Origin: Tetracentron sinense
Lineage: Eukaryota > Streptophyta > Magnoliopsida > Trochodendrales > Trochodendraceae
DNA: 64,000 nt
Assembly (NCBI GenBank): GCA_015143295.1
Contig: CM026565.1
Location: forward strand, 12,398,041-12,462,040
Direction of reading: 5' to 3'
Shown here: one piece after another, positions 16,629-54,043 of the stretch
How the letters are laid out: each line of letters begins with the position of its first letter
Position numbering within the stretch: the stretch's first letter is position 1
The notes under the pieces: generated by a model
What the model saw: only the letters and a program-made list of their open reading frames with translations
Told to the model about the DNA's origin: nothing
The model's database searches: none
Made by a program: the position numbers and the translations under genes

Positions 16629-16730
16629 TCCTCCCCTCCTTACAAAAATTTCGTCCTCGAAATTTAGACGCTACTTGCATTACAAACCAAAAAAGAAAAT
16701 TACAAGTCATATACAAACTTATGCAAAAAC

Positions 16731-17249: not shown

Positions 17250-17252
17250 TTA

Positions 17253-19037: not shown

Positions 19038-19040
19038 CTA

Positions 19041-20056
19041 GGAATAGACCAAAATGTCATCAACAAATATAATCACACACCTATCAAGATATGGCCGGAA
19101 CACCCGGTTCATCAAATCCATAAAGGCTGCCAGCGCGTTCGTGAGTCCAAAAGGCATCACCAAGAACTCGTAGTGTCCATACCGAGTCCTGAAAGCAGTT
19201 TTGGGAACATCTTCTGCCTTAATCTTCAACTGGTGATAACCCGATCGAAGATCTATCTTTGAGAAAAATCTCGCTCCCTTCAACTGATCGAACAAATCGT
19301 CAATTCTAGGCAATGGATATTTATTCTTTATAGTGACCTTGTTCAATTGCCGGTAATCGACGCACATCCGCATCGAACCATCTTTCTTCTTAACAAACAA
19401 CACCGGGGCACCCCACAGTGAGACACTTGGTCGAATGAAACCAAGGCCTTGTAATTCCTCCAACTGAGTCTTCAACTCCTTGAGTTCCACCGGGGCCATT
19501 CTATACGGAGCCCGAGAGATGGGAGCTGTGCCTGGTGTAAGCTCAATCACAAACTCAATCTCCCTGTCTGGAGGTAATCCTGGCAACTCCTCTGGAAATA
19601 CATCCAGGAATTCACTCACGACCGGAATAGTCGAAGAGTCCTTTGCCTCGAGGTTCGCTAAGCTCAATGCCGCAAAATGAGCGATATCTCTACTTTTTAA
19701 CCCCCGAAAGTGAAATGGTTTTCCTTCTACCGGCTTGAAGAGTACCATCTTCTCAAAGCAAGCTACATGCCCATGATGTGCTGCTAACCAATCCATTCCC
19801 AATATAACATCAAAGTCTGGGAATCCCAGGACGATGAGATCAACCGCCAACTCGTGGCTTCCAACTTGGACCACACTATTTCTATACACTTTATCTGCCA
19901 ATACTGTTTTGCCGAGAGGAGTCGAAATGGCTAACTCTGGTCCTAGCTGACTTGGCTCTACAGAAAAGCCTTCTGAAAAACTCGGCGAGACAAACAAATG
20001 AGTAGACCCGGTATCAATCAACACTCGAGCCAAACACTCATTGACTAGTAGGGTTC
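19041..20056 (-). pseudogene. Gypsy D protease and reverse transcriptase (exon 2)
   Basis: Begins at the inferred acceptor (TTTCAG|GAACCC). After splicing, the frame from Gag enters [14 protein letters not shown], the protease active site (DTG). It continues through [10 protein letters not shown] and the linker [18 protein letters not shown] follows: [72 protein letters not shown] and catalytic FVDDILVYS. It ends at TAG 19038-19040. The first ATG at 20033 is internal and is not a true start. Confidence 0.92.
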
Positions 20057-20200
20057 CTGAAATTTTAGCTAGTTACGTCAATTCAAGCATCAACAATGTA
20101 TACACATAGGTATATATATATATAGCATACCAAGTACGTACACAAGGAATAAAACATAACATAACAATCACGAATAAAGAAAATAACTCCAAACGCGTAC
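20057..20200 (-). other. Gypsy D gag-pol intron (144 nt, inferred)
   Basis: On minus, donor CAAG|GTACGC and acceptor TTTCAG|GA. The interval is T-rich and AT-rich, with an in-frame stop at about 20073. Removing it joins ...DDVVQG to [16 protein letters not shown] in frame. Gypsy B has an intron at the same codon with different sequence. Inferred from sequence only. Confidence 0.72.
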
Positions 20201-21449
20201 CTTGCACCACATCGTCAGATGCAAGTGCATCACCCTCTGTCAAGGCAAAAACTCGCCCCTGGTTCGTCTGGCGAGGTGGAGGTGTAGACCGGGTAGTCTG
20301 GGATGACGCCTGATATGATCCTGCTGGGTGTGCTGGGGGCCTAATCCCCTGAGACTGGCCTGGTAAATGCCGACTGGGGCAATCCCTGATCATATGGCCC
20401 TGGCGACCACAATGAAAGCATCCACCCGATGCCCTTCAGCAATCTCCTACCGGGTGCCTTCGGCCGCACGAAGTGCAGACCTCGTGTGTATAGGTCGGAG
20501 GGGCCGGAGGTGGAGCATACCTCATCGTCTGAGGTGCAACAGGCCGTGGGGCCGGGAGGGCCTGAGGTCGAGGTGCTTGTGGTACATACTGCCGTGGTGC
20601 TGGAGGCGCATAAGTCGGCCTCATCAGTGGTGCTGGCCACGCATACTGATAAGGGCCGGTACGAGCCCGCCTCTCTGGAGGTGTTGAACTACTAGCTTGG
20701 CCTCCCGCCAACTCCCTCTTCTTGGACACTGTCTCTGAATTGGCCTCGACCAATAAGGCCTTGTCTACTACCTCAGGGTAGGTAGCATGTCTGAAAACTG
20801 AAACCTTCTCCATGATAACATCTTTGAGCCCTTGCTTAAACCTTCTTGCCTTCATTGCCTCGGTGGCAACCATGTGAGTCGCGAAGCGTGATAGCTCCGA
20901 GAACTTGGCCTCGTATTGTGCCACCGACATCAAACCTTGCTCGAGGTTGATGAATTCTCTCTCTTTCTTTTCCCGTGCTCCAATCGGAAAATAATTCTTG
21001 TAAAAAGCGTCCTTGAACTCATCCCAAGTCCAAGGTTGACCCTGCATGGTCAAATCTCGCATCCTCAATGCGGACAACCACCAATGGTGGGCTTCGCTCT
21101 CTAGCATGAAAACTGCCCATGCTACTCTATCCTCCTCTGTAGGCGAGAGGACCGCAAAGATCTTCTCCATCTGGAGGATCCATGCCTCCGCAGCAAGAGG
21201 GTCCACACTCCCATGGAAGGATGGAGGCCTCAATCTCCTGAATGCCTCAACTCCAGCGGTACGATGTACTGGAGCTGCGGGCGGTGGAGTAGGTGCCGCT
21301 GATGCCGGTATAGTTTGCCGAGCCGCCAGGATGGCGAGTGTCTCAGCAATAGAGCCTAATACCTGAGAGAGGTCTGGCTGCTCATCCTCATCCCGTGAAG
21401 AAGAGGAAGCTCTGGTATGTGGTCCACGACCCCGTGTGTTCCGTCTCAT
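20201..21449 (-). pseudogene. Gypsy D gag (exon 1)
   Basis: Starts MRRNTRGRGPHTRASSSSRD at 21449, 346 bases after the primer site. A disordered N-terminus and a Pro/Ala stretch lead to the retrotransposon Gag domain (RPPSFHGSVDPLAAEAWILQMEK ... WTWDEFKDAFYKNYFP ... EFINLEQGLMSVAQYEAKF). A Pro/Tyr-rich linker then leads to two zinc knuckles: CTSCGRRHPVGDC and, after a stop, CFHCGRQGHMIRDC. The TGA at 20436-20438 lies between the knuckles where CGA is expected, and is the only break. The remainder runs to the donor at 20201. Without splicing, translation would stop shortly inside the intron, giving Gag alone. Confidence 0.92.
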
Positions 21450-21794
21450 GACTAAAGTCCTGAGAATAATAACACCACATGAGTCTAACTTGAAACCACA
21501 GTTTATTTCAATGCCATTTCACAATAATTCAATTTGTATTAGTTGTATAATACTAATATACATCACATCAAGTCATCAGAGTATTCATCACATTATACTT
21601 ATACTTTAGTGTTCTAGCGTACCTAGGACCCGTACTTGGTTAAAGCAACCATTTTAGACTAAGACTAAAGTTTAGTTTTACACTTGGAACCAGACTCGCT
21701 CCCGACTTACTTCCTTCCTAACTTGTTTCCTAACATATGCTCTTGTCAAGCCGTGGTATAAGATTCTAAATGACCCTAAAGACCTAAAGCCTAA

Positions 21795-21806
21795 GCTCTG
21801 ATACCA
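21795..21806 (-). other. Gypsy D primer-binding site
   Basis: TGGTATCAGAGC on minus, four bases from the 5' LTR; complementary to initiator tRNA-Met. Confidence 0.92.
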
Positions 21807-21810
21807 CTTC

Positions 21811-24059
21811 TGTCGCGACCCAAAACCCACCCTAGGAGTTAGAGTGAACTTTGGACGACTAATCATGGCTTACATGACTTGCTTGACAAACCAACCTGCA
21901 AAAACCCACAGAGCATATACAATAAAGGATGACAGCGGAAACATAACTATAAAACACAGCGGAAGTCTAACAACCTCTAAGTATATACACATGGTCCAAG
22001 TTTAATAAAAAGAAATCAAAACAAAGAAAGTGCGGACATGCCCGCCAAAATACATGGATATAATCACTCATGCTCACCCACAGCTAATACACTCAGAATC
22101 TAACACCACCTACTGATAACCCTCTACGGGAGGTTCCTCCAAAGGCTCCTCGACGTACTCCTCTTCCACCCATGGACCAGGAGCACAAACATCAAATGGA
22201 GCAGCAGCTCCCTCAGAACCTGCCGACATAAGAAGTACGGCTGAGCATGGAATACTCAGCGGGTACCAAATACTAACCAATAGTCATAGCATCAAAATGG
22301 CAATACATAAATCAGGAGCAATTCATATATGTTAGAAGAAAACAATTCATATCATACAAGGAAGTAAAGCAATTTATAATCATGCTTGTATTTCGAAGAA
22401 AGCCGATAAAACCTCTTGAAAACATCGTGCACTTGACTTGGCTTGAAATATCTTTTCGTACTTGAAAGCTTGTCGTGTTTGTCTTGCTTGATCTTGTCGA
22501 GCGTGTCGTACGTGTCATGTCATGCATGTCATGCGTGCTTGCTTCTGATCATGTAACTTGTGAGATACACTTGTGAGATATCCTTGTGAGATGCGCTTGA
22601 GAGATGCCTTGAGAGGGAAGGGAGACTCTTCTTTATGCAATGCACTTGAGAGGGAAGGGAGACCCTTCTTCATGATATGTATGTACTTGAGAGGGAAGGG
22701 AGGCCCTTCTTCATGATATGTACTTGTGAGTGAGGGGAGACCCCTCGTGGAATGTTGGTTCTTGTTTTCTTGTGAAAAGTGAGGTAAAACATATCATAGG
22801 ATATGTCCCACCTCTAACCATGTTCTTGAAAACCTCGGTAAATCATGTCATGCATGCTGTGCTCGTGGGAATCGTGTACATACTTGCATTTAAATTTAAA
22901 TATGACATTTGGGTAATTTACAACACATATAACATCAATGATTGAGCAATGTAATATTCACATCATTTATGGAAAGCAAGAAAACACACTATCATAGGCC
23001 CTAGCAATATCCATAATTTATTAGGCATGCATTTCCCAATTTACAACTCACTTTATTCACCTGGGCATTTCATCAAACATGGTGTGTTCATTATTCATTA
23101 TTCTTTTAAACCTAAATCATGCTTTTCTAGGTGAGTTTACTCACATCATACGTGTTTGTTCATTATGGATACAATGCCCTCCCCATTTCATTCATCACAT
23201 CATTTCACACGGCATCCAATCGCCTATTCCATCTCCATTCACCACGTTCACACTTCCAAACTCATAGCACATGTACAAATGTAAGAAACAAAGAGAAATA
23301 AAGGAAAAGAGGAGCTATAGCTAGGAGGGTAGCAAGAAGTACCGACCTTGAAGAAATGAGGAAGAAACCCCTTCCAAAAACGACCGTGTAGCTGCTGCCC
23401 TAGCTTGAGGAGATGCTCCTCACGAGCTTGTGCCTTGATCTTGAAGAAAAATGGGCTTGAGTTGAGTGTGGGTTCACAAACCCCTTGATTTCTCTCCAAA
23501 ATGGAAACCCTAGGTTTAGGAATCACCCTCTCCTCTCTTCTTATCTCCCAATCTCTCTAAGTGTTGAGAATGAGCCCTAAAGGCTCGAGCGATCCTATAT
23601 AAGAAAGGGTATAACACCCGAATGCCGAAAATGCCCTTAGTGAAAATTCTGCAAAACGCGAGGACCGAGCGATCGGTGTTTATAACCGATCGATCGGTTG
23701 CCTACCGAACGATCGGTGTGTTGACCGAGCTCTCGACCAAAAATCAACTCTCTGGAAAATTTCCCCATACAAAAATCTTGACCAGTCGATAGCTACCGAT
23801 CGATCGGTTTTGGACCGATCGATCGCTCTATGGACCGAGCGATCGGTTGCCTGCAGGTCCAGACTGTTTTGGCCATATCTTTTGACTCGCTCGTCGGATT
23901 TTGACGATTCAACTTGCGTTGGGTTCGTACTTTGAAAAGGAACATTTCTAATGTTTTGGAATTTTCAATTTCTTTCTCATTTATTAATTGTACTACTTTA
24001 AAGGCAAAATGGCTATGAAAGTGTCATGCATTAAATGTGAAAAGGTTCGGGGCTCTACA
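21811..24059 (-). repeat. Gypsy D 5' LTR
   Basis: 2249 bp, almost identical to the 3' LTR. The main difference is an extra purine-rich repeat unit at about 22610-22690. It carries TATATA at 23596-23601, the array at 23662-23848 and the conserved hairpin. This copy would drive transcription. Confidence 0.93.
23596..23848 (-). promoter_or_regulatory. Gypsy D promoter: palindrome array plus TATA
   Basis: Same layout as the 3' copy: about seven CCGATCGATCGG-type sites (23662-23848) lie just upstream of TATATA in the direction of transcription. Some sites differ from the 3' copy by single bases, such as CCGAACGATCGG near 23705. Confidence 0.8.
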
Positions 24060-25371: not shown

Positions 25372-25678
25372 CACCGATCGCTAGGGATCGATCGGTACCC
25401 TACCGATCGCTCAGTACCCTACCGATCGCTCGGTCAGAAGTGGTGATCGATCGGTCCACAACCGATCGATTGGTAGCTATCGACTGGTTAACTTTTTTGT
25501 ATGGAAAATTTTTTCAGAGAGGGTGTTTTTGACCGAGAGCTCAGTCATAACCACCGGTCGATCGGTAGGCGACCGATCGCTCGGTCATAACCACCGATCG
25601 CTCAGTCCTTCATGTTTTTGCAAAATTTCAGTAAGGGCTTTTAAGTCTTTTGGCTCTCAAACCTTGGGGCTATAAATA
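25372..25678 (+). promoter_or_regulatory. Gypsy B promoter: palindrome array plus TATA
   Basis: About ten sites of the ACCGATCGNTCGGT type (25372-25607), then TATAAATAG at 25671-25679. Upstream at about 25263-25345 is the anchor block shared with D, E and F, including the inverted repeat TCGTCG-AAATC-CGACGA. Confidence 0.82.
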
Positions 25679-31019: not shown

Positions 31020-32255
31020 TGTAGAGACCTAGATCTTTTTCATGTTTTTAATTTCAAGCATTGAGAGTATTATAGTCCTTGTGATGTTTTAATGTTTATG
31101 TATTAATATCTAATTGGTATAGTGTGATTAAGGCTTGATCAAACTTGTAATCGGAGGGATGTCATATCACACCCTGACCTTTAGGAAGCTCCAGTTTTGG
31201 CACTGTTTATTAGAATTGAGTGATTCTTGAACCATTAAAAAGGTATTGGACCCTCTTCGAGGTTCATGTTTAATGTTTTTCCACATTTTTAGTCTAAGCT
31301 AAATCAAAAGTGGGTTTTCTGATGTTTTGTCTGATGGAATTACAGATCAGTCAACTTTGGAGACATTTTGGTCTATAAATAAAGTAGGATTTAAAAATTT
31401 TAAAATGTCGAAAATGTTCATTTTCGAAAGACAAATTCAATGCAAGTTGAATCGTCGAAATCCGACGAACGAATCAAAAGTTATGGCCAAAACAGTATGA
31501 TGGGTCAAATTCTACAGAGCACCGATCGCTAGGGATTGATCGGTACCCAACCGATCGCTCGGTCAGAAGTAGCGATCGATCGGTCCACAACCGATCGATC
31601 GGTCCACAACCGATCGATCGGTAGCTATCGATCGGTTAAATTTTTTGTATGAGAAAATTTTCCAGAGAGGGTGTTTTTGACCGAGAGCTTGGTCATAACC
31701 ACCGGTCGATCGGTAGGCGATCGATCGCTCGGTCATAACCACCGATTGCTCGGTCTTTCGTGTTTTTGTAAAATTTCAGTAAGAGCTTTTAAGTTTTTTG
31801 GCTCTCAAACCTTGGGGCTATAAATAGGAGTCCTATTTCGAGGTATTAGAATAATCTACGTATTTCTAATCTAATTTGGCAAAAAGGGAGAGAAAACCTA
31901 AGGTTTTGAGAGGAAGATTGCTTGGAGAAGAAGGAGATAGCTTGGATATTCGTTAGGAAAGCTTGGAGATCGTCCTCAAAGCTTCCCCAAATCATCTTGG
32001 GAGCGATTTGGATCCAAGGGAAGGATCCCTAAGGTCGATATACTATCCTAATCTACTCTATTTCAATGTTTCGTGAATGTTAATATGATAGAAATGATAG
32101 AATGGAGATTAGATGCATTCTCTCCTAATTTTCTATGAAGTAAGCTAATTATGGATGAGAAATGTGGATTAGAATGTGGATAGAATGTATGGAGGATGGG
32201 AAATGTATGGAGGATGAGATTAATATGTGGATGTGAATGGTGAATGGATTGTATG
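31020..32255 (+). repeat. Gypsy B 3' LTR, first part
   Basis: Matches the 5' LTR up to the GTATG target of copia C. It contains its own array (31521-31754) and TATAAATAG at 31819. Array units differ from the 5' LTR. The LTR resumes at 43399. Confidence 0.92.
31521..31827 (+). promoter_or_regulatory. Gypsy B 3' LTR: palindrome array plus TATA
   Basis: Around ten CCGATCGATCGG-type sites followed by TATAAATAG. Compared with the 5' copy, one unit (around CTACCGATCGCTCAGTACC) is missing and one (around TCCACAACCGATCGATCGG) is duplicated. Confidence 0.8.
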
Positions 32256-33466
32256 TGAAATTTATCCAGATCAATGATCTCTAAGACCTAGAGGGGGGGT
32301 GAATAGGTCTATCTAATAATTTCTAACCAATTTTAATTTTTCAATTAATATGTTTAGAAATCAATGAACAATTCACTCGGACAATCCACACAAATCAAAC
32401 ACAGAAGATTTTTACGTGGAAAGCCCTAACGGGAAAAAACCACGGGACCTCGTCCAGCAATAAACTTCACTATGAAAAGATTTCAAGTACAAGACAAGAC
32501 CTTACCAAAACAGAAACGACGTTCCTAGGTATAGACTCTTACTCTTGATTTCCACGAACCAGCAGGTTCGATCTCCGCCGTAGCAGCTTCGGTTCCACAC
32601 CGACCAAATCTTCTCAAGCTACTTCAAAACCATGATCACACACGATCGATCTCCTTCCACGAAGGCTCCGGATCAAACACCGGACACACACACAAGGTGT
32701 AGGGTTGTGAATCAATTTTGGAAGTTTAAAACCCTAGAGGGATCTCATATAGATTTGAGATCACACAATGCAAGATCAAAAGTTTAGATCTATACTTGCA
32801 TTCTCTAGGATCAAAGAAAGAGGAGGGATCAACAAAGATCTAATAAGAACAATAGGAAAAACCCTAGAAGAGTTTCTCAGACCTCTACTCTTTCAAAAAT
32901 AAACAAAGATGAAACCAAGATACGAATTAGGTCTCCAAAAAGTTGTTTATATAGGGTTTAAAAAAGAATCCAGAAAAAGAAAAATTCTTTTTACGGGGAC
33001 CGATCGATCGGTGCTCATTACCGATCGCTCGGTCCAAAACGGATCGATCGGTGCTCTAACCGATCGAGCGGTTGAAAATCATCTCTCTGGAAAAATACCC
33101 CATACAAATTATTTGTCCAGTCGATAGCCACCGATCGATCGGTCTCAATACCGAGCGATCGGTTGAGACAGAATTTTTTCAAACCATGATTCATTTCATG
33201 TTTATTTGATTCAACTTAGATCAAACAACTTTATTAGGTTTAAAACTATCCTCCTAGGTATGTTTAGAGTTATCTAAGTCAAATCCAACCTAGGTAGGGG
33301 TCTCTAAGTCCATTACCTTTCTAGATCCAGAGTAGGAGCTTTTTCTTCACTTTCTTCAATCTTCTTGATGCTTTAGCTCTTCTCTTCTGACAAGTTAAAC
33401 ACGACTTGACTCACATGACCTATCTAATGATCACGGAATTTGCCAACACCTACTTAGGGATTTACA
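32256..33466 (-). repeat. Copia C 3' LTR
   Basis: 1211 bp; on minus it begins TGTAAATCCC and ends in TTTCA. The array lies at 32999-33163 and CTATATAA at 32947-32954. It differs from the 5' LTR by scattered substitutions and lacks one 18-bp array unit. Confidence 0.93.
32947..33163 (-). promoter_or_regulatory. Copia C 3' LTR: palindrome array plus TATA
   Basis: Six CCGATCGATCGG-type sites (32999-33163), about 45 bp upstream of CTATATAA in the direction of transcription. The block 33083-33143 aligns without gaps to gypsy D 16317-16377. Confidence 0.82.
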
Positions 33467-34074
33467 ATCTCCCCCTTTGGCAATTCCGGGACAAAACAAG
33501 ACTAACTCATATACTAGGTTCAAATTTTCCCAAATGATTCAAAAATGGAAAATTGACCTTTACATGACTCAAAAATAAATACATGACATTTGACATTTTA
33601 ACTTGTCATGATTAATCAAACTTAGAACCTGTTTGCCTACACATGCTAAATCAAAAACCTGTGAAGCATGGGAAATAAAATATGGAAAGAAATAAAACAT
33701 GTATAACATCCACAATTCCACAATACTATATCCATAACAGGTTAATCATGTTTCCATAACATCATCCACAAAATCATCACCACATCCACAAAATCATATC
33801 CATGTGTTATCATGCACTCTCCCCCTTTTTGGCTCGAAATGCCAAAGGCGGACTATTAACAATAAAATTAACGTATAAACACAAATGAGATGAGATATAA
33901 GAAACCATCCAAATGCATACATATATGACCAAGTCAATAACATCCAAAAGGCTTGTACTCAGTACAACCAAGACAAAATACATCTTAATGTCAAATAAAA
34001 CTAGTACTAAGATAAACTCCAAAATATACACATGAACCAGAAGGAGTTTCTATCCTACTACATCAATCTAACTA
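33467..34074 (-). other. Copia C polypurine tract and ORF3 3' UTR
   Basis: The polypurine tract (on minus GCCAAAGGGGGAGAT, 33467-33481) abuts the 3' LTR. The rest is AT-rich with many ACAT/CCACAA repeats, and no gene is seen. Confidence 0.75.
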
Positions 34075-35364
34075 TCACTCCTGCTCATCATCAGAAGTGA
34101 GCTGGGACTCATAATAAGTTCGAAAGTCACGAACATCTCTCTGTACGCCCAGCACTGCTGCATCCAATGATCCAAGTCTGCCACGGATCTTTGTGGTGAA
34201 CTCCTGGTGAGATGAAATATGCGTTGAGAGATCCATCTGCATCTCTCTCATCATTCTGGCTAGATCATCAATCATGGCCGGAGGTGCATGAGAGGATCCT
34301 GTACCAAACTCAGCTTCTTCCTCAATATCTCGAATGAAAGCATGAGAGAAACTCTGAGCTATAGTCTTTTTGTTGATTGGACCTTTTGGAGTACGGGTAG
34401 GAACTCCAGGAGGAGCAATGATTCCTTGAGAACCAAGGAGTTTAGTAATCAGGGATCCAAAGGGAAGAGCTCCAACCACAGTTTGAGTTTGATGGGCTTG
34501 AATCATCAAATCAATTATGTGGGCTGCAAGGTCAATATCATGCCCACGAAGGAGACTGAATAAAAATCAAGCTCTATCTTCCCTAAGGTCCGCAGTATGA
34601 ACCTTTGGGTGGATATTGGCACTCATAACTAGGTTTACAAGTCTGGCATCCCTAGTGAGTTTTGTGACTTCGATTAAGGAACCAACCCAAAATGTAGGAG
34701 CACCACAAAGAAATGTGACTACATTGTTCATAGATTCTTTATCCTCATCTTTCTTGTATTTATAAGGATAATAGGCATCTGGAACTCGAGGACAACCAAG
34801 AAATTTTGCAATGACATTTGGATTTATCAAAACTGATTGTTCTAAAGATCGAGATTTAAAAGACCAGGTTTTGAAATTTATTTCAGAAAAATTTGAGTAA
34901 AATTCCTGGACTAACTGAATAGGAGCAGGACCGGATAAATTGAGAAGACCTTCCCAGTGACGATCAGTAATGATTTTAGAAAGGTAGTAATCACCAAAAT
35001 CTGAAATTCTAATGCTCCTTTCAACCATTATACCATTTTTACTAAAATACTCACTATAAAGTTGAGCAGCATTAGGGCTAATGAAAGGACCCAATAGAAC
35101 AGTGGAAGATGAACTGGCTTTTCCCTTTTGTTTCCGGGTTTTATCTGCCAAAGCCTTTTGGCGATTTTCAGTAGTAGAATCCACCATTCTATGAATTGGT
35201 CGATCCCCTATTGAAATCCCATGACCTATAGGAGTGAAGGAAAAGGGCTCTTGGATTTGCTCATCTTCAGGAGGGTCCTCTTGGTTGTTGAGGACCAACT
35301 TTCCGCATTTGGGAACGCCAGACATGAGATAGGCTAGAAGGAGTAAGGACAAAATGAAAGCCAT
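34075..35364 (-). pseudogene. Copia C ORF3: envelope-position protein, putative plant transposon protein domain
   Basis: About 430 codons on the same strand as gag-pol, downstream of RNase H. The first ATG (35364) gives a hydrophobic start, MAFILSLLLLAYL, that could be a signal or membrane segment; a second ATG follows in MSGVPKCGK. The middle part (HWEGLLNLSG, LVQEFYSNF, VIAKFLGCPRVPDAYYPY) resembles the 'putative plant transposon protein' domain found in many plant repeats. A TGA at about 34564 splits it; the C-terminal piece (144 codons from the first Met) is rich in charged helices (ARMMREMQMDLSTHISSHQEF). It has its own upstream promoter-like module. Function is unknown. Copia G starts a homologous ORF, so this is an inherited gene and not chance. 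Confidence 0.72.
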
Positions 35365-35620
35365 GGACGAACAGACGATGCCCTAGATGAGAAATTCATC
35401 CTATACGCAAGAAAACGTACAAGGCTTACCTTTTTTATGCTTGGGAAACCCTTAGAGTCGAATGGAATGACCGTAGGAAGGTTTTGGAGGAGAGGTAACC
35501 GAGAGATCGCTCTTGAGTTCGGAGAAGAAGTGAACAGAAAAAATAGAAATGAGGGTTTTATAACTCTGTTCACGAAAGACCGATCGATCGGTCTTTAACA
35601 CCGAGCGATCGGTGGTCTGA
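35365..35620 (-). promoter_or_regulatory. Copia C ORF3 promoter: two palindromes, TATA, leader
   Basis: Two ACCGATCGATCGGT-type sites, 7 bp apart (35578-35614), are followed about 15 bp downstream on minus by TTATAAAACCC (35556-35563). A CT-rich leader of about 190 bp then leads to the ORF3 ATG. The pair has the same order as in the C LTR (perfect site, then the GAGCGATCGG form). Inferred promoter. Confidence 0.65.
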
Positions 35621-36784
35621 AAAATTAAAACCATTTCTCCCCCTCAACCAATGGTACAATAAAAACTTATTTTCACCTCAAAATAACCAATTCACCAAAA
35701 AATTTGCAATAATTGATTTCATTAAAATCATAAAGAATGATCACCCAAGAATTTATATATCAAGTATAGTCATAAATAAGGATTATGTAAACAATAATTG
35801 ATTTTCAAAGGTGATTAATTTTGGTATTTGCATCAAATTCACAATCAGAGTCAAGAAACAATTAGAAGTAATGTTAGTGTGAAATCAAAATTCATTACCT
35901 GACTCTTTGAATTGGTTTCCTTCCTTAAGCTAGATTTTGACATTATAGCTCAAATGGGACTCTAAAATTTTCAAAAACTAGTTTTAAAACCAATAAACAT
36001 CCATACTTATATGATGAGCAATTTTTACCCCAAATTTGACTAACAAATTTATTTCATTTCTTTTTCAGTCAAATTGTACTCATTGTGAAAATTCTTTTTG
36101 GAGTACACATATATAGTTTTTTTTTAGCACATTGGTGACTTTCACACAAGTGAGAAGGTAGCTCTTTCTAATGACAGTGGGGGCTTTCACACTAGCAATC
36201 CATATAGATATCTACTGTTTGTTTAGGTAGCCATTACTCACTGTTTGTATTCACTAGTAGCTATCACACAAACTCATAGGTAGTCCTCTCCATGTCAATA
36301 ATTTTTTATTACTAGGGGGCTCACCTTATGGAATTTTTTATTACATTGGTTATACTATATTTTGATTAATCTAGGGAACCATATGGAGGTATAATATCAG
36401 AACCTTTAAATAGGAACTAATACCATCTAAAGAATCAGTCAGAGTGCATGTGCAACATATAACATCTTTGTTTACTCAACTCTAACTGAGATTAGTTAGC
36501 ATGACCAAATTCAATCACAAGATCAAACCAATAGTTGACCTATCCTAATTTATCCAATCCTATGAAATATTTATCCTTGTATTATATGTTCAAATATGAT
36601 TTCAAGGAGATAAATTTAAGCAAAATGATTGGAAAGAAGGTCATACAAACACATTATTTTTTGCAATATTTTTCAATTTTTGAATGTTTTTGGATTTTTA
36701 TTACTTAAAGAAAATAACAAAAAAAATAGCTCTATGACATAAATAGAACATGAAGAACACATAGGCTATGAAACAAGTACATCT
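35621..36784 (-). other. Copia C pol-ORF3 spacer with conserved GGCTTTCACAC repeats
   Basis: No ORF. At 36130-36270 are several copies of a motif around GGNGNCTTTCACAC and GTAGCC. The same motif set occurs at the matching place in copia G (about 48045-48215), although the rest of the spacer has diverged. This points to a conserved cis element. Confidence 0.55.
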
Positions 36785-39016
36785 TTATTCAATTCCGCAC
36801 AAACCTATAGATTTCCTAAGGAGTTCAAACCTAAGGGAATCTAAGGGTTTTGTAAGAATGTCCGCAAATTGATTCTCTATTTGGACATACTCTATAGACA
36901 CAATCTTTTGCTCAACAAGATCACGGATGAAGTGATGTCTAATGTCTATGTGCTTTGTGCGAGAATGTTGAACGGGATTTTTGGAAATATTGATAGCACT
37001 TGAATTATCACAATACACAGTCATAGTGCTTTGTTCAATCCCGTAATCATTCAACATCTGCTTCATCCACAGAAGTTGAGTGCAACAACTGCCAGCTGCT
37101 ATGTACTCAGCTTCTACAGTGGACAGTGAAATTGAATTCTGCTTTTTGCTAAGCCAAGCAACTAAGCAGTTTCCAATATAGAAACATCCTCCAGAGGTGC
37201 TCTTCCTATCATCAGCATTTCCGGCCCAATCGGCATCGGAATATCCAACTATCGTGGCATTTGTATCAAAAGAATACAAGAGGCCAAATGATAGAGTTCC
37301 ACTCACATATCGAATGATACGCTTAACTGCAAGCAAGTGAGACTCTTTTGGGCTCGCTTGATAGCGGGCACATGCACCAACACTAAAGGCTATGTCAGGT
37401 CTAGTAGCAGTTAGGTAGAGTAAACTACCAATCATGCTTCTATAAGAAGTTTGATCAACATCTTTGCCTGAAGCATCTTTACTAAGTTTTGTAGTAGAAC
37501 TCATAGGAGTCCTTACATGCTTAGCAGAGCTCATGCCAAATTTCTTCACTAGATTTTTAGCATATTTGATTTGAGATACTGAGATCCCAGAATCCAATTG
37601 CTTGATCTGAAGACCAAGGAAGAAACTTAGCTCACCAACCATGCTCATTTCAAATTCATTTTTCATTTGTTCAGCAAATGAAAGAGCATGTAAGTCTAAT
37701 GTGGAACCAAACACTATGTCATCAACATATATCTGGGCGATGACAATATCACCTTTCACATTCTTTATGAAAAGGGTTCTGTCTACTCCCCCTCTCAAAA
37801 ATCCGTTTTCCAAGAGATAAGTAGTCAGCCTCTCATACCAAGCTCTTGGAGCTTGCTTTAAACCATAGAGGGCCCTTTTTAGCCGATAGACTTGATCAAG
37901 GTGATGTGGATCTTCAAACCCTTTTGGTTGTTCCACATAGACTTCCTCTTGTAGAATGCCATTCAGAAAGGCACTCTTAACATCCATTTGAAAAAGTTTG
38001 AATTTCATATGGCAAGCCACAGCTAGAAGAATTCTTATTGATTCTAGCCTGGCTACAGGAGCAAAGGTTTCATCGAAGTCAATACCTTCAATTTGGGTGT
38101 ATCCTTGTGCAACTAACCTAACCTTATTTCTTATGATAGTACCTTTTTCATCAGATTTGTTCTTGAAAATCCATTTGGTACCTATCACATTTGTATTGTT
38201 AGGCCTAGTTACTAAATACCAAACATCATTCCTAGTAAACTGAAGTAACTCTTCTTGCATTGCATTTATCCAATTATCATCTGCAAGAGCTTCAGCTACA
38301 TTCTTGGGTTCAAAAGATGAAGTATAGCAAATGTAGCTAACTTCATTTTCAATTTGTTTCCTCGTTCTCACTCCACTTTCAAGATCACCAATTATGTCAG
38401 TGGGGGTATGAGGACTCATGACCCTAGAATGTGTAGGTTTTGATGGAGATGATTGCTTATTTATATGTGGAGTTGAAACAGTTTCAACATTTTCATTTTC
38501 AGCACTTTCATCATCCTCAAGTTGCACATTTTCAACACTGGAGTCATCCACAGCTACATTTATGGACTCCATAATCGTAGAGGTTCTCAAGTTATACACT
38601 CGATAAGCTCTACTGTTGGAGGAATATCCAAGAAATATCCCTTCATCACTCCGGGATTCAAATTTGCCCAGTTGCTCTCTATCCTTAAGGATATAGCATT
38701 TACTTCCGAATTCTCAAAAGTACTTGACACTGGATTTTTTGTTATTCCACAACTCATATGGGGTTTTCCTTGTTCCAGGTCTTACAAAAACTCTATTAAC
38801 TATATAGCAAGCAGTGTTAACTGCCTCAGCCCAGAAATGAGAAGCTAGATTGTTGCTGTGAAGCATAACTCTAGCCATCTCTTGGAGAACTCTGTTCTTC
38901 CTCTCTACTACACCATTCTGCTGAGGTGTAATAGGTGCAGAAAATTCATGTTTGATACTCGACTCATCACAAAAGTCGTTGTACTTAGAGTTTTCAAACT
39001 CCTTTCCATGATCACT
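36785..39016 (-). pseudogene. Copia C integrase core end, RT and RNase H
   Basis: After a TGA at 39017-39019 (Arg CGA expected), integrase continues SDHGKEFENS and NGVVERKNRVLQEM. A second TGA near 38718 again replaces CGA ([10 protein letters not shown]). From there the frame is open to the natural stop at 36785. RT shows [62 protein letters not shown] and catalytic [11 protein letters not shown]. RNase H shows [30 protein letters not shown] and [15 protein letters not shown]. All RT and RNase H key residues are intact. Confidence 0.93.
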
Positions 39017-42000
39017 TCAAATTCGAGTGATTGGGCATCTTTTCTCATTTTGAATTTTCAAGCAAATACTTTTGAAATTGTCAAAAGCATCGGATTTCTC
39101 TCTTATAAATGCCACCCATGACATTCTTGAGAAATCATCAACCATAACTAGGATGTATCGCTTTCCACCTAGGCTTTCAGTTCTTGTAGGACCCATTAGA
39201 TCCATATGAATTAATTCCAGTGGATATGAAGTAGCAATACTTGTAGTCTTCTTATGTGGGGTTCTAATTTGTTTACCAATTTGGCATGGCCCACACACAG
39301 CAGTAGAAGGCTTTCCTAGTTTGGGAACACCTCTTACAATCTCTTGCTTGGAGATTTTACATAGGTCTTTGAAGTTCATGTGACCTAGTCTTCGGTACCA
39401 CAAATCAACCTCCTCAATTTTAGTCTTATAACAGACATTTGAGGGATTAGGACTGGGAATTAAGCCGTAGCAATTGTCAGTGGTTCTCAACCCTTCTAGA
39501 ACACACTTACCTTTACCATTAATGACTAAGCATTTATTTTGGGTAAAGTGCACAGCATGGTTATCATCACATAGTTGACTTATGCTAATTAAATTAGCTT
39601 TCAGTCCTTCAACAAACAAGGCATCTTTCAATTTTGGTATGCCTGGTGAATCGATGATACCCTTCCCCTTTACTAAAGACTTGCTTCCATCACCAAAAGT
39701 AACAGTCCCATCTGGACAGTCCTCAAATTGAGTAAATAAGGACTCGTTACCTGTCATATGCTGAGAACACCCACTATCGAAGTACCACATTTCTATGTTT
39801 TGGGCTTTCAAGGCAGTGTGAATGGCGAAGCACTTAAGGTCATCCTTTCTTACATAAACAGTCTTTAAACTTTGTTTAGATCTTTGATCATTAAACTGTG
39901 TATTAGAAACCTTTTTCCTTTTTGTCCTCCTTGACCTTTTCCTGTTTTGTTCACTTCTAGCTTTTTGATTAGTCAAATTCTTTCCTCTTGAATAATCATT
40001 TGGAATAAATTGACCAGTTCTTGTCATAGAGATTTGAGCAATTCTATTAACATCTTCGCTCAATATTCTAGACTTTTCAGCCAGAACCTGAATCTGCCTT
40101 TGAAGAGTCCCTTGACTTTGATTTTGGTTCCATGAACCATTTTGGGGAGCTCTCCTAAAAGCATTACAATTTGGACGAATGTGACCTCTTACACCACAAA
40201 AGTGACATGTGGGTATGAATCTTGGGAGAGGAGGATTTCTTCTAAAAGGAATTTGATTCCTCATAGCACTCACTCTAGGAGCTGTATTTCTAGGCTTTAC
40301 AAAATTTGTATAAGCCTTAGTACTTGATGTTGAAGGTAGATTCACTTTAGGATCAGAATGTATTGGCTCAAACACTGCACTAGTCATTGTACCAACAGCT
40401 AAAGGACCAGCTGGTGTGTCAGCATGTCCTATCCCAGATCTACTCGAATTTGACCCATACTTTCTAACTAGTTCATCTAGGCAGCTAGTGTTACCAAACA
40501 TTCTTACTTCTTTTTCAAGAGTATTGACCTTCTGAATCAAGTCAGTCTTGTCTTTAAGGGTAATTTGATGTTCTTTTTCAAGAAATTTCACCTTATCAAC
40601 AAGAGAGTCTTTAAAAGTTTCCAGCTCCATTTGCAGAGTTCTTAACTCTTCAATTTCTTTCATGGAAGTGTCTCTGTCAACTTCTAATTTTCTGACCACA
40701 TTAGTCAATGAGACATTCTCTTCCAAAAGACATTGAACTTTCATAACAAATACTTCTTTTTCATTTTCCAACTGACTAACTAGAGCACTCTTCTCTTCTG
40801 CTACTAGTTTACAAGTATCTCTTTCATTTTGAATGATTTTGAGTTTTTTGCTCAAGGAGATTTTTGTTTTAGTCAGCTTCAAACTTTCAGCATACAACTT
40901 ATCATAAGTTGTTTTCAAATCTTCATCACTTTCAGAGTCAGTTTGACTCTTCTGTATGTCATCACTAGACTCAGTATGAACACTCTCATCACTTCTATCC
41001 TTTTCATCAACCACAGAGGTAGTCTCAAGAATCCCAGAAAGGGAAACAGTGAAAGCCGTATGATTTCCAGTATCTTCACTTGAAGAGGAACTGTCCGATT
41101 CTTCATTCTCGGAATCACTGTCATCCCAACAGGCATTCATCACCTTGCCCTTACTCTTCTTCTTGTTAGGACAATTAGGTGAAATATGACCGAAGCCATG
41201 GCATTCATAACATTGAACACCTTGGGATTTCTTGTCGCCATTCTTGGAATTTTTCTTGTTTTCCCAGGGCTTAGACTTTGACTTCTCAAAAGATTTTCCT
41301 CCCTGTTTGGGATTGAACCTCTTTTTCGTTCTAAAAATTTTTTGAAATTTTTTAACGAAGAGAGCCATTTCTTCCTCATTCATATCTCCATCACTGTCAT
41401 CCTCATCCAAAGATTCCTTGATGGATTTCAAGGCTAAAGATTTGTTCTTCTTGGATGGACGGAGATTGAGTTCATAGGTTTGGAGTGAACCAACCAATTC
41501 CTCAATCTTCAGAGAGTCAACATTTTTACTCTCTTCGATTGCAGTGACTTTGGGTTGAAATCTCTCAGGGAGAGATCTAAGGACTTTTCTAACTATTTTG
41601 GACTCAGATATTTTCTCACCTAAATTGAAACTAGCGTTGACAATGTCACTAAGTTTTGCATAGAATTCATCAAAAGTGTCATTGTCATCCATGTTTAAAT
41701 GTTCAAATTTGGTGGTTAACATTTGGAGTTTTGAGATTTTAACAGTGGTAGTACCCTCATGGGTAATTTCAAGAATGTCCCAAGCCTCCTTTGCTGTTTC
41801 ACATGAAGAAATTCGTCTGAATTCCTCAGCAGTGACTGCAGTAAAGATAGCATTGAGACCTTTAGTGTTTCATCCACTTGACTCAAGCTCTTCTCTGGTC
41901 CATTCATTATAATATTTGACGACAGTCAAATCACCTACAGTATTCATGGGCGTAGTCCACCCATTCTGTATAGACATCCAAATTCTCTCGTCAATTGATT

Positions 42001-42103
42001 TGAGAAAGGCTCTCATTCTAGCTTTCCAGTATGCATAATTATTTCCATCAAAAAGTGGAGGACGAGAGACGGATCCTCCTTCTCTTAGAGTACTCATGAT
42101 CAC
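39017..42103 (-). pseudogene. Copia C gag, protease and integrase N-terminus
   Basis: Starts at the ATG at 42103 (MIMSTLREGGSVSRPPLFDG, the copia Gag start NYAYWKARMRAFL), about 50 bases after the primer site. A TGA near 41869 replaces Trp. From there to 39017 the frame is open: the UBN2-type Gag region (DTFDEFYAKLSDIV, VLRSLPERFQPKV), zinc knuckle CYECHGFGHISPNC, a Ser/Asp-rich stretch, about 150 residues of coiled coil, and a second knuckle CHFCGVRGHIRPNC. Protease shows WYFDSGCSQHMTG; integrase shows LWYRRLGHMNF, CGPCQIGKQ and IHMDLMGPTR. Coiled-coil Gag is a known Sirevirus trait. This is the most intact copia Gag here. Confidence 0.92.
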
Positions 42104-42150
42104 GGATAATACAGGATCACACTTAAGGGATTAGCCTTATCAGTGAACTA

Positions 42151-42162
42151 GCTCTGATACCA
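42151..42162 (-). other. Copia C primer-binding site
   Basis: TGGTATCAGAGC on minus, two bases after the 5' LTR; pairs with initiator tRNA-Met. Confidence 0.92.
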
Positions 42163-42164
42163 AT

Positions 42165-43393
42165 TGAAATTTATCCAGATCAATGATCTCTAAGACCTAG
42201 AGGGGGGGTGAATAAGTCTATCTAATAATTTCTAACCAATTTTAATTTTTCAATTAATATGTTTAGAAATCAATGAATAATTCACTCAGACAATCCACAC
42301 AAATCAAACACAGAAGATTTTTACGTGGAAAACCCTAACGGGAAAAAACCACGGGACCTCGTCCAGCAATAAACTTCACTATGAAAAGATTTCAAGTACA
42401 AGACAAGACCTTACCAAAACAGAAACGACGTTCCTAGGTATAGACTCTTACTATTGATTTCCACGAACCAGCAGGTTCGATCTCCGCCGTAGCAGCTTCG
42501 GTTCCACACCGACCAAATCTTCTCAAGCTACTTCAAAACCACGATCACACACGATCGATCTCCTTCCACAAAGGCTCCGGATCAAACACCGGACACACAC
42601 ACAAGGTGTAGGGTTGTGAATCAATTTTGGAAGTTTAAAACCCTAGAGGGATCTCATATAGATCTGAGATCACACAATGCAAGATCAAAAGTTTAGATCT
42701 ATACTTGCATTCTCTAGGATCAAAGAAAGAGGAGGGATCAACAAAGATCTAATAAGAACAATAGGAAAAACCCTAGAAGAGTTTCTCAGACCTCTACTCT
42801 TTCAAAAATAAACAAAGATGAGACCAAGATACGAATTAGGTCTCCAAAAAGTTGTTTATATAGGGTTTAAAAAAGAATCCAGAAAAAGAAAAATTCTTTT
42901 TACGGGGACCGATCGATCGGTGCTCATTACCGATCGCTCGGTCCAAAACGGATCGATTGGTGCTCTACCCGATCGAGCGGTTGAAAATCATCTCTCTGGA
43001 AAAATACCCCATACAAATTATTTGTCTAGTCGATAGCCACCGATCGCTCGGTAGGCCACCGATCGATCGGTCTCAATACCGAGCGATCGGTTGAGACAGA
43101 ATTTTTTCAAACCATGATTCATTTCATGTTTATTTGATTCAACTTAGATCAAACAACTTTATTAGGTTTAAAACTATCCTCCTAGGTATGTTTAGAGTTA
43201 TCTAAGTCAAATCCAACCTAGGTAGGGGTCTCTAAGTCCATTACCTTTCTAGATCCAGAGTAGGAGTTTTTCTTCACTTTCTTCAATCTTCTTGATGCTT
43301 TAGCTCTTCTCTTCTGACAAGTTAAACACGACTTGACTCACATGACCTATCTAATGATCACGGAATTTGCCAACACCTACTTAGGGATTTACA
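42165..43393 (-). repeat. Copia C 5' LTR
   Basis: 1229 bp. The array is at 42908-43092 and TATATA at about 42857. It has one more palindrome unit than the 3' LTR (near 43039-43056). This copy drives the genomic transcript. Confidence 0.93.
42855..43092 (-). promoter_or_regulatory. Copia C promoter: palindrome array plus TATA
   Basis: Seven CCGATCGATCGG-type sites just upstream, on minus, of CTATATAA. One unit more than the 3' LTR copy. Confidence 0.82.
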
Positions 43394-44682: not shown

Positions 44683-44687
44683 AGATT

Positions 44688-46684
44688 CTCACAGGTAGAT
44701 ATAACTTTCTGATTCCTTATACCTTGTATAGTCACATCTGTGGGTGAAGCTGGACACTTCACTTATATGGCTGCCAGAATGCTAAGATGTTCTCAATAGT
44801 TGAGATGTAGTTCTGTCTCGAACTACTGTAGTGGAGACTACACATCAGCATATGGGTGCTTAAATGTACACTGACTGATTGCATTCAATGAGAGACCTCT
44901 TGCATAAACATACTATCAGATAGTTGGTCTCTCATTCACATTGAACGGTTTCGATGATCCTTAGATCTGATGAGTTCATCTATGACTGGGCAATGATCTG
45001 ACTGTTTTGATTCCACCAACGAATTTTCTAACTTAGGGAATACAATACAGTGACAGTTGGATATTCAGAAAGTTGTTCGAGTCATGATGAATTTCAAACA
45101 AGAAATCCATGCTCATTAATTTGAGAGATTGTCCAAGTTCTGAGTAAGACAGTTGATTCAGTTCAAATCCTGCGCAGGTGATTTTGAAAACAAAATAAGT
45201 TTTGAAATATACTTTTATTAAAAGGTATTATACTTATAAAATGATTTTTTCAAAATGTTTTTCATGAGAAATTATTTCTCATGGCTTAATCATAAGTCTT
45301 GGAAACTCGGATGATTTGCAATGGGCTATGGGTTAGATAGTATGTCAATCTCGAAGGCCCATTAGGGATAATGTATTTGGAAGGATATATCGAATTTAAA
45401 AGTTCATGTGGCGGGATCCGTAATGGTTAATATTCATACACTAGGATTCAATTGTAACATGGATATCTCACGTCACTTGCAATTCCGATGTAATTCTCGT
45501 TTAGGGTCAATGGGATAACATTGGATAAGCCAGGGTAAGAATGTCCCAGAGCAATCTGTGGAGGTGCTCACATAAGAAATACAAGCTCAATAATTGATTA
45601 AAAGTTAATCAATTATTTGAAGTGTTTAAAAGTTAATCATTTAATTAAATAGATTAATAGTTAATCTATTGTTGAAATTAATTGTTAATTTAACATAATT
45701 AAAGGGGAAATGAGTTTGACCCATATTCATAAACCCATTAAAATGGACCTTTAATATGGGGCAAAGCCCATGGGTTTAAACCCTAGGATGGGGCGCCCAC
45801 TTGAGGAATCCTAATTGGATTAGGATTTGTTTAATTGAATAATTATTGAAATATAATTCCTTTTATTATGGAATTAAAATCCAAGTGTTGGATTGCAACT
45901 AGGATTAAGATGTTATTGTAATTAGATTACAATAAGGAGTTTTAACTCCTCAAATCCCACGCCCCATAGAAGCTCACGCCCCCCCTTGTGGATTCCTAGT
46001 TTGACTAGGTTTCCTACTTTGGTGTAGGATGTTGACTTATCCCTTTTAATTAAGGAATCCTCTTATAATAGGGACTCTTTAATTAATAGGATTATTAAAA
46101 CTAAAGTAGTTATAGATTAAGTAGGAGTTTACTTAATTAATAATAAGAGTTATTGTTAATTAATAAATCCTACTAGATAAGATCAAGTTGGAGTAGGATT
46201 AGGATAAGATCGTAGTCTATAAATACCCCAACACCCTAGACCATTAAGTAGAATTCTCCAGAATTTTTTCTCTCCTCTCCTCTTTCTCTCCAAACTGTGA
46301 GCCCTAGGGGAGACCTTTAGGGATTTTCGTGAGCTATATTTGTGGTCCTAGTTGGGTTTTGCAAATCTAGGGTTTTGAACCTTAGTATTATTGGTGATAG
46401 AAGGTCTACACCATTGATCCATCTATTTCCTCTTGCTTCTATAATTCCAAATGAGATTCTAAAGCTTCGTGGGGATAGCAAAGAACAAGGATCGAGCTTC
46501 TAGTATTTTTTCAGAGAAATCTCTACAAAGAGTTCTGACGGTTCGAGTGGATTATGCTTCACCGGTGAAAAAACATTCACCGAGGTGATATGAATAAAAC
46601 TCTTAGATAATTTTGATGCTTTTTATGGTGTTGAGATCTAGGGGATCCTGTTTCCGCATAAATTTTTATCCGGATCCCCCTTCA
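44688..46684 (+). repeat. Copia A 3' LTR, second part
   Basis: Continues the LTR broken by gypsy B and ends CCCCCTTCA at 46684. The last ~1030 bp match 2567-3626. TATAAATA lies near 46219. AT-rich, with no gene and no palindromic array. Confidence 0.88.
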
Positions 46685-46779
46685 GGGACATCATCTTTTG
46701 CCCAAGAGAGGATGAGGCGGCGCTTCGGACGACCCGCCATGAGAATGGAGGCAATGAGAAGAAGGAAATCAAGAGCCAT
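46685..46779 (-). pseudogene. Copia G ORF3, N-terminal stub
   Basis: The ATG at 46779 gives MALDFLLLIASIL then MAGRPKRRLILSWAKDDVP, the same plan as C ORF3 (hydrophobic start, second Met, basic stretch). The frame is cut at 46685 by the end of copia A. Conservation of the hydrophobic start between C and G suggests the first ATG is used. Assigned by position and N-terminal resemblance. Confidence 0.62.
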
Positions 46780-47157
46780 AGACCCAAAGTTGAAAGAACT
46801 GGAAAAGAGGTAGAGTTTTACCGTGAAGAGGAGATGGAAGCACGCAGACACCAGGGATTGTGATGGTTGAACCTCACTGTGGAGAGGTGAAGACGTACGA
46901 AGCAGCTGAGCACTCACAATAATCAAACCAGAGACTTGATAGAAGGATGCTGGAAATCGCACGACCGAGTGTGGTCTTGAAATTACAAGAGAGGACGTGA
47001 AGCTCTGTGGTGAAAATGGGAGCTGGACAACACGGTTTATGGCTGGAAAATGCTACAAGAAGGCAAGGAATCCTGCTACTGTAAGAGAGCAAAGAGGACA
47101 AAATAGGAAGGCAACCATGTGACTCGAAGGCAAGATTCGAAAACCCCATGTTTGTGT

Positions 47158-47197
47158 TCGGTCGACCGAATGACCACTCAAGGTCGACCCTCAAACC
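47158..47197 (-). promoter_or_regulatory. Copia G ORF3 upstream GGTCGACC module
   Basis: Two GGTCGACC palindromes about 15 bp apart within a 40-bp stretch. It is nearly identical to 54873-54912 in the G LTR array (TTCGGTCRACCGAATGA ... GGTCGACC). It lies about 380 bp upstream of the ORF3 ATG. I see no clear TATA here. Confidence 0.65.
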
Positions 47198-48752
47198 AAA
47201 ACCTGTACACCTGCGAAATGTTGGAGAGAGAGGGACTCCCTAGCACTTTGGCCTCTTGTGGAACATGATGGTGGGAAGAGAATCTTCAAAGATGAAGCTG
47301 AAAAAGCTGCATTTAAACACAAAATGCCAAACTACCCATACAGCCTTGAGTGGCAAAGACCAATTCAAGTGGCCATGGTTTCAACCGAAGAACCACCTGG
47401 AAACTAATTGTAAAAAGGGAGCCAGAAGAGGTGACACAAAAATTGGCAAAACAATTGTGTCTTAAACACTTGAACACAAAAAAAAAATTAGCAATGGAAA
47501 ATCAGTCAAAAGTTTGCACTTTGTGAGAAGAAATTTCAAAAATTCTCCACTTTACTCAGAAGTATCAGTCATCAAAAAACTTTCCCTTGAAAAAAATTTC
47601 AACATTATGTCCAGGAAGGAAAGACAGTATGTGCAACTTTTTCAAGAGAAAAATAATACAATGTCCAAGAATGTTTAGCATACAAACACTGAGTATCCAA
47701 GGATATTTCCATCGACCCTATGCGCAAGGGATGGCAAGACACAGTCACACATGCTAATGTACAGTGAATAATAGGCTATACCATCAATGTGAAGTGTGTG
47801 AGGTGAAATTCTTACTGAACACCTTTAGAGGTAGGCACCCTTAGATAGATAAGAACATTAGTGCATTTCAGGAACACCAAGTGTCAAAAAATACTGAGAG
47901 ATGCATTAAGGGTAATCCAAAGGATGAAGAATTTTATGTGCAATTTTTACCCTTTGCATATGTTGCTCTCACAGTGTTTATAGAATTTTTGCTTGGTGAA
48001 GGCATTCTTGATCAGTCTTTTTCTTTTGAATTTTGGAATGCAATGGTGGCTTTCACACTTACTGGGTAGGTAGCCCTAGCTATTGGCAGCAGGGGCTTTC
48101 ACTCTAGGGACCCAGATAGATACCTACTGTCCACCTTAGTAGCCATTTCCATATTGTTTGCATCCAATAGTGGCAGTCACACTATCCCAGAGGTAGCCCT
48201 TTCCATTGCATAAAAATTTTAAACTAGGGCACATTTTGAGGGATGGTACCTTCATGATCTAGTCAGATTGTATCAACTGGAAGAACCATCATGACTAATA
48301 TCATTACCTATTCATAGGGATATGTACCATCTGCAGGAGATAGCTAGAGTGCAAGTGCAGGTAATAGTGCAACAGTATTTGCCATATTTCTAACTGTATT
48401 TAGCAAGATAGTCTATGTGCATGTCCCTAAAGACACTTTGGTAGGTATGATATCCTCATGAACTCAATACGATCAAATATGTATCTTGGACAAGCATTAT
48501 GAGCACCAGAAAAATTCAACCATGCACACCACAATCCAAACCCCCGCCCCCTTTTTTTTTAAATATGCCTAACTAAAAGAAAACAAAAATCTTTTTGAAG
48601 TTTTTCTGAATTTTTTTATGTTTTTGTATTTTTGAAATAAGATAAACAAACAAGAGAACAACAATAAGCAAAAACTGATAGTATACACCGGAGGAATAGA
48701 GCTAGGAAGAGATATGGATATGAGATTACCTAGTCTATCAAAAAGCACTCAA
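47198..48752 (-). other. Copia G pol-ORF3 spacer
   Basis: Noncoding. It holds the GGCTTTCACAC/GTAGCC motif set at about 48045-48215, shared with copia C 36130-36270. It also has a C8/T9 run near 48541-48560. Nothing else recognised. Confidence 0.5.
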
Positions 48753-53990: not shown

Positions 53991-54029
53991 AAGATCACAC
54001 TTAAGGGATTTAACCTTATGAGTGAACCT

Positions 54030-54041: not shown

Positions 54042-54043
54042 AT

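Follow-up and report, generated by a model that had tools for sequence, protein, structure and literature searches.

A 64,000-nucleotide stretch of the Tetracentron sinense genome (assembly GCA_015143295.1, contig CM026565.1, positions 12,398,041 to 12,462,040; hereafter the window) holds nested plant retrotransposons, among which copia C, a Sirevirus-like Ty1/copia element, shares with two Ty3/gypsy elements, gypsy A and gypsy B, a homologous cassette of regularly spaced palindromes situated in the U3 region of the long terminal repeats (LTRs), upstream of the TATA box. A two-unit array of the same palindrome precedes the third gene (ORF3) of copia C. In the window, such arrays are carried by two copia and two gypsy elements and by a pair of solo LTRs; the names copia C and copia G keep the letters of a preliminary description, and A, B, H1 and H2 were assigned here. 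With a probability of roughly 60%, we regard the arrays as modular U3 enhancer cassettes that would be read by a dimeric host factor, with the ORF3 of copia C possessing a small promoter of its own tuned to the cassette.

The palindrome CCGATCGATCGG, with at most one mismatch, occurs at 33 sites in the window, compared with 0.02 expected from 100 dinucleotide shuffles. These sites include both copia C LTRs and positions 35580 and 35601 before ORF3; 19 of them, overlooked in the preliminary description, are located in Ty3/gypsy LTRs (10 in gypsy A and 9 in gypsy B). At up to two mismatches, copia C contains six units in the left LTR, seven in the right LTR, two before ORF3 and none elsewhere, confirming the earlier observation that its LTRs and ORF3 are preceded by matching palindromes. 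As had also been described, the units before ORF3 follow each other in the same order as in the LTR; they resemble the first LTR pair in form as well (91% identity over 35 columns). The TATA box reported before ORF3 is indeed present (TATAAAA, 35557-35562), but it begins 17 bp rather than 15 bp past the end of the pair. In view of this two-unit copy before a TATA box, ORF3 of copia C probably has its own internal promoter, a conclusion held with moderate confidence, and the occurrence of one palindrome type in the LTR and in the ORF3 promoter would fit a single factor co-regulating both promoters. The pair is as similar to the gypsy B LTR (score 52) as it is to its own LTR (score 53). Furthermore, CGGTCTTTCGTG is common to the end of the gypsy B array (31730-31760) and the end of the copia C ORF3 array (35560-35600) and is missing from the copia C LTR array ends inspected; this likeness may be due to chance. 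Some 25 bp further upstream than the ORF3 mini-array, at 35643, stands GGGGGAG, a sequence resembling a polypurine tract (PPT). The order of PPT, array and TATA box before ORF3 mirrors that of the 3′ LTR, and the ORF3 promoter may be the remnant of a U3.

In gypsy A and gypsy B, the cassette before the TATA box consists of the same word as in copia C, set at a pitch of ~20 bp, and a non-palindromic linker. Alignment of the LTRs of copia C and gypsy A, covering 191 bp of U3 in each, has 154 identical columns out of 202 and a score of 153 (best of 100 shuffles, 33). The copia C cassette scores 138 against the second gypsy A LTR (best shuffle, 34), and 102 and 98 against the gypsy B LTRs (best shuffles, 40 and 33). 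The cassettes of copia C and gypsy A share orientation, both lying upstream of TATA, and outside the cassette the two LTRs display no match above background. As a control with real sequences, 12 copia and 12 gypsy stretches, picked by hand with the C, A and B arrays left out, were compared on both strands, and all 144 comparisons scored 33 or less (median 25). When the palindromes were masked, a 55-column linker alignment between C and A scored 66, which none of 1000 shuffles reached (maximum 31 with one LTR pair and 30 with the other), and B against C gave 35 and 43, likewise exceeding each of 1000 shuffles (maxima 30 and 29). Judging by these alignments, we have high confidence that the copia C and gypsy cassettes are homologous. 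The CCGATCGATCGG-type motif is not confined to one element family, being common to copia C and two gypsy elements, and because gypsy A and B carry the copia C cassette, and do so without an ORF3, the element-specific regulatory code suggested in the preliminary description does not hold.

That gypsy and copia each acquired the cassette on their own, from a single host promoter or satellite instead of from one another, is rather improbable. Although no direction or donor of exchange is apparent here, the cassette occupies the same position before TATA, and points the same way, in copia and gypsy, and units of the copia C word with up to two mismatches are absent from the window outside the features of A, B, C and H1. 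The closeness of copia C to gypsy B was considered as the reason for sharing and rejected, the copia C cassette being nearer to that of gypsy A (76%) than to that of gypsy B (72%); the copia C cassette was also judged too diverged for recent conversion. Searches of viral and genome contigs with the cassette pattern returned no matches, and neither did a search of viral contigs with the two-unit pattern; the latter had a single match among the genome contigs, in a bacterial metagenome-assembled genome, read as a chance occurrence of two close sites in ordinary-looking bacterial DNA. The observed-to-expected CpG ratio is 1.3-2.1 in the CGATCG-type cassettes, 0.56 in the whole window and 0.66 in the copia G LTR array (features within 14414-62781).

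Comparison with the flanking sequences, as best local identities, sets the cassettes against the descent of their carriers. Gypsy A and B are 79-85% identical upstream and 84% in the cassette, with little similarity downstream; gypsy A and copia C match in the cassette (76%) and neither upstream nor downstream of it; copia C and copia G match downstream (72%) and neither upstream nor in the cassette. Solo LTR H1 is 88% identical to gypsy A upstream and 78% downstream of an array that has no match beyond a 37-column piece. All eight of its units have T as the last letter and seven have A as the first, positions at which the units of gypsy A, gypsy B and copia C mostly carry G and C, respectively. 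Solo LTR H2 matches the gypsy A flanks at 91% and 93% with no cassette match, and it alone, not H1, exceeds 90% identity to gypsy A outside the array. The 26-bp tandem repeat of H2 (61837-62340) occupies the place of the gypsy A palindrome array, with ACAACGTACACGTTGT-type palindromes adjoining. A weak 76-column match between gypsy B and H1 (score 36) is taken as the common CGATCG core. With palindromes masked, H1 against A, B and C, and copia G against A and C, were at chance level; the possibility that H1 carries the same cassette with another word was rejected, H1 doing no better than shuffles.

On these comparisons, cassette type does not track element descent in either superfamily. Since it is incongruent with the flanks, U3 cassettes appear to behave as swapped modules, also between superfamilies, and replacement of whole modules, linker included, would be the simplest account; the proposed exchange is drawn from three elements. 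Since both LTRs receive their U3 from the 3′ copy during reverse transcription, one replacement in the 3′ LTR would suffice to change both; the ORF3 copy would need a change of its own or would have to travel with the U3 on a shared 3′ fragment. A conceivable route is template switching, which, in the accessible parts of the report, has been inferred for two complex elements inside the copia element Angela, not across superfamilies (PMC1950507). In the Tnt1 superfamily, as in the window, U3 is a module that changes within otherwise similar elements; that modularity lies within one copia superfamily, with exchange with gypsy undescribed in the portion of the source available, whereas here copia and gypsy are involved (PMC1838419).

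The spacing of the units is consistent with binding of a protein. Ten arrays gave 45 spacings of up to 35 bp between neighbouring units, and 40 of them measure 19-22 bp; A, B and C contribute both of their LTRs to this count, so that the spacings are not independent, and H2 is left out. This pitch is found with CGATCG words and with GTCGAC words, and equal pitch with unrelated words would fit protein sites two helical turns apart. In the host-factor mechanism, which we hold with moderate confidence, palindromes of 12-14 bp, mostly spaced by about two helical turns, would enhance transcription from upstream of the TATA box, a host DNA-binding protein occupying them as a dimer, side by side on one helix face; in copia C, one factor would activate both the LTR and the internal ORF3 promoter. 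In A, B, C, H1 and G, and before the copia C ORF3, the last unit is followed by a TATA box at a distance of 17-65 bp. Helical phasing of the two blocks within cassettes was not upheld, the block gaps being 49, 63, 71, 78, 91 and 92 bp.

Alternatively, RNA hairpins of adjacent units might feed small-RNA silencing or serve the RNA itself, with DNA binding secondary, which we consider quite unlikely. Seven chosen array pieces all fold more stably than the shuffle mean (z from -2.6 to -6.3), in copia C two units of opposite variant pair with each other in the predicted fold, and maize Sirevirus palindromes are reported, in what is accessible of the sources, to be small-RNA hotspots (PMC5311732, PMC10760457). 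Good folding is, however, expected of any palindrome array, the one-mismatch variant units of gypsy A occur in a single orientation without a compensating partner, and the shared pitch and the place before TATA in both the LTR and the ORF3 promoter indicate DNA sites.

Copia G carries a second palindrome type and is a weaker case than copia C, with an ORF3 reduced to a short remnant (weak likeness to the copia C ORF3, E 0.28), no TATA box seen and a single LTR within the window. The statement that its LTR stretch 54873-54912 recurs at 47158-47197 stands, although "almost unchanged" was too strong, since identity between the ORF3 pair and that stretch is 82% over 39 columns, with a score of 43 that compares with 31 at most among 200 shuffles. 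As previously described, each of C and G has one palindrome type in its LTR and ORF3 promoter, and the type is not the same in the two elements; our confidence in an internal ORF3 promoter is low for copia G. A possible, albeit unlikely, explanation of the match is plain co-inheritance, whereby the ORF3 promoter and the 3′ U3 travel together, or an LTR array was once copied before ORF3, without a selected common reader. Consistent with this, the two regions lie ~2.4 kb apart, the similarity between the copia G pair and one stretch of its LTR extends past the core word, the copia C pair repeats the first LTR pair, and two elements in the window are too small a sample to decide against it. Yet the best alignments between ORF3-upstream and LTR sequences are limited to 35-39 array columns, and retention of the pairing in nine diverged published elements argues for maintenance (PMC2829016).

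Indeed, the pairing of LTR and ORF3 arrays is a rediscovery, in print since 2010 for nine Sireviruses (Bousios et al. 2010, PMC2829016). According to the accessible parts of that report, each of 13 Sireviruses has one palindromic repeated motif (RM), most copies of which lie in the upper LTR half, ahead of TATA; an envelope-like gene (ENV) is present in nine, all with extra motif copies in the linker region, 77 of 79 of which lie upstream of the gene, whereas the four ENV-less elements have LTR motifs and no linker copies. Copia C likewise has a CpG-bearing palindrome clustered in U3 before a conserved TATA box, with extra copies upstream of the third gene, and together with copia G brings the number of elements with matched arrays to 11. 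The Vitis RM motif CGGTCGACCG corresponds to the core of the copia G motif; the CGG-CCG core of the RM is present in copia G (TCGGTCGACCGA), whereas copia C has CCG..CGG, and Tnd-1 in the published table also lacks it. The RM was called Sirevirus-specific as opposed to classic Ty1/copia, but here the cassette is also found in Ty3/gypsy. The authors proposed an internal ENV promoter without conclusive identification (PMC2829016), whereas in copia C a TATA box follows the pair. In maize Sireviruses, palindrome clusters similarly occupy the LTR cis-region (PMC5311732, PMC10760457), and the maize Copia palindrome is also the top motif in structured regions of Helitrons (PMC10760457), so that a word shared across superfamilies has a precedent; as far as the accessible text goes, only the word is shared there, whereas here the linker is also homologous and the partners are copia and gypsy.

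The preliminary description further offered the reading that ORF3, or a factor recruited by it, reads its own sites, by analogy with the VANC proteins of VANDAL elements; in such a scheme, the ORF3 protein or a complex recruited by it would bind the palindromes of its own LTR and promoter and lift silencing. The matching of ORF3 and LTR arrays within C and within G would agree with this, as would, in the available parts of the source, the location of VANC targets, short motifs within fast-changing tandem repeats, and the action of VANC6 on the unrelated AT9TSD1, which carries the VANC6 motif (PMC5735166). In both systems, short non-coding motif arrays change together between relatives and an unrelated element may share the motif, but the VANC reader is encoded by the element itself and was shown to bind its motif (PMC5735166), whereas ORF3 is at most a candidate reader and matches another Pfam family. 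We nevertheless consider such self-recognition very unlikely. Gypsy A and gypsy B both lack a third ORF of at least 90 aa between integrase and LTR, the four ENV-less Sireviruses carry such motifs (PMC2829016), and the ORF3 of copia C matches PF20167; these three points favour a host factor. No VANC domain (DUF1985, DUF287) was found in the copia C ORF3 by profile search at E values up to 10, PF20167 being the single family for the N-terminal piece, and for its second piece the sole family in a search to E 10 was PF03981, at a sub-cutoff E of 0.057. Among 515 candidates from a protein collection, no relative of the ORF3 piece was found at E ≤0.001, and its structure model is uninformative (predicted local distance difference test, pLDDT, 35; predicted template modelling score, pTM, 0.19). 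The ORF3 of this copy is not intact, because an in-frame stop (34567-34569) splits its two pieces. It is extremely unlikely that ORF3 is an element-encoded cassette reader and that the ORF3-less gypsy elements took up the cassette to exploit it in trans; if true, the palindrome arrays would represent a shared address code for a VANC-like factor, traded between superfamilies.

Several points weigh against the reading of the arrays as host-read enhancer cassettes. The evidence comes from one window with two Sirevirus-like elements. Five of the 45 spacings fall outside 19-22 bp, H2 has pitches of 23 and 26 bp, and the regular pitch could in part stem from tandem duplication. Since palindromes fold well as RNA, a role in RNA or small RNAs is possible, and cassette homology would equally result if gypsy and copia had each captured a common host sequence. 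No TATA[TA]A occurs before the copia G ORF3 within 46950-47230. Finally, six ENV-bearing Sireviruses are described, in the accessible parts of the source, as having no such boxes, so that ENV does not need them in general (PMC2829016).

Assignment of the carriers rests on domains and structural marks. Copia C encodes a Ty1/copia polymerase (RVT_2, E 2.1e-72, with Retrotran_gag_2 and Pol_BBD) and bears Sirevirus marks, namely a primer-binding site at 42162, at the LTR junction, and a polyC signal at the LTR end (42209 and 32300); besides the copy before ORF3, the linker holds GGGGGAG PPT copies at 33825 and 33475, with another in pol at 37792. A third gene between pol and the 3′ LTR is a trait of many, although not all, Sireviruses. 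None of seven pattern matches to the copia C reverse transcriptase in viral contigs was a relative. Gypsy A is a chromovirus, as judged from Ty3/gypsy domains and an integrase chromodomain (Chromo, E 1.8e-6, above cutoff). The region 44683-46684 runs up to the copia G ORF3 remnant; its final 1006 bp are a 95% match to 2621-3626, and the rest of copia G is missing beyond.

Table 1. Palindrome arrays and the elements that carry them (coordinates within the window)
Feature	Position	Strand	Remarks
U3 cassette, copia C 3′ LTR	32994-33161	-	palindromes at 33151, 33131, linker, 33060, 33040, 33021, 33000; TATA 32948-32953
U3 cassette, copia C 5′ LTR	42903-43093	-	7 units; TATA 42857-42862; aligns with gypsy A 23659-23849
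Two-unit mini-array before copia C ORF3	35578-35614	-	units 35601, 35580; pitch 21; TATA 35557-35562
U3 cassette, gypsy A 5′ LTR	23659-23849	-	homologous to C; TATA 23596-23601
U3 cassette, gypsy A other LTR	16228-16418	-	second copy
U3 cassette, gypsy B 5′ LTR	25373-25608	+	TATA 25671-25676
U3 cassette, gypsy B 3′ LTR	31521-31755	+	TATA 31819-31824
U3 array, copia G 5′ LTR	54745-54999	-	8 GGTCGACC-type units, pitch 20-22; TATA 54692-54697
GGTCGACC-type pair before copia G ORF3 remnant	47158-47197	-	pitch 22
ACGATCGATCGT-type array, solo LTR H1	57579-57766	+	8 units, 5 exact
H2 array	61880-62557	-	26-bp tandem repeat and four ACAACGTACACGTTGT-type units, pitch 23
Copia C, Sirevirus-like Ty1/copia	32256-43393	-	inside 3′ LTR of gypsy B; 5-bp target duplication GTATG
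Copia C LTRs	32256-33466 and 42165-43393	-	identity 97.4%
Copia C ORF3, N-terminal piece	34567-35364	-	265 aa, ends at in-frame stop; PF20167 (Transposase_32, putative plant transposon protein), E 1.5e-14
Copia C ORF3, second piece	34075-34509	-	
Gypsy A	14414-24059	-	target duplication CATTC; Retrotrans_gag, RVT_1, Chromo
Gypsy A LTRs	21808-24059 (5′) and 14414-16628	-	
Gypsy B	24871 to ~44682	+	target duplication AGATT
Gypsy B 5′ LTR	from 24871	+	match to partner LTR reaches 26809; outer end approximate
Gypsy B 3′ LTR	31020-32255, resuming 43394 to ~44682	+	interrupted by copia C
Copia G, 5′ part	~46685-55260	-	outer LTR end approximate; single LTR within window
Solo LTR H1	57351-59689	+	target duplication GTTTG
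Solo LTR H2	60035-62781	-	target duplication CTCAA

We found no report of a homologous U3 cassette common to copia and gypsy in the mostly open-access literature searched, as far as its accessible parts go. What appears to be new beyond that literature is a homologous U3 module, linker included, in Ty1/copia and Ty3/gypsy elements, beside gypsy relatives with differing arrays. Collectively, the results suggest that a ~190-base module of evenly spaced palindromes has been swapped between elements and is read by a common, probably host, protein. If this holds genome-wide, retrotransposons of different superfamilies would share one pool of enhancer modules, and a single host factor could trigger bursts of unrelated families. 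Furthermore, the question of an internal promoter for the Sirevirus env-like gene becomes testable at a defined TATA box.

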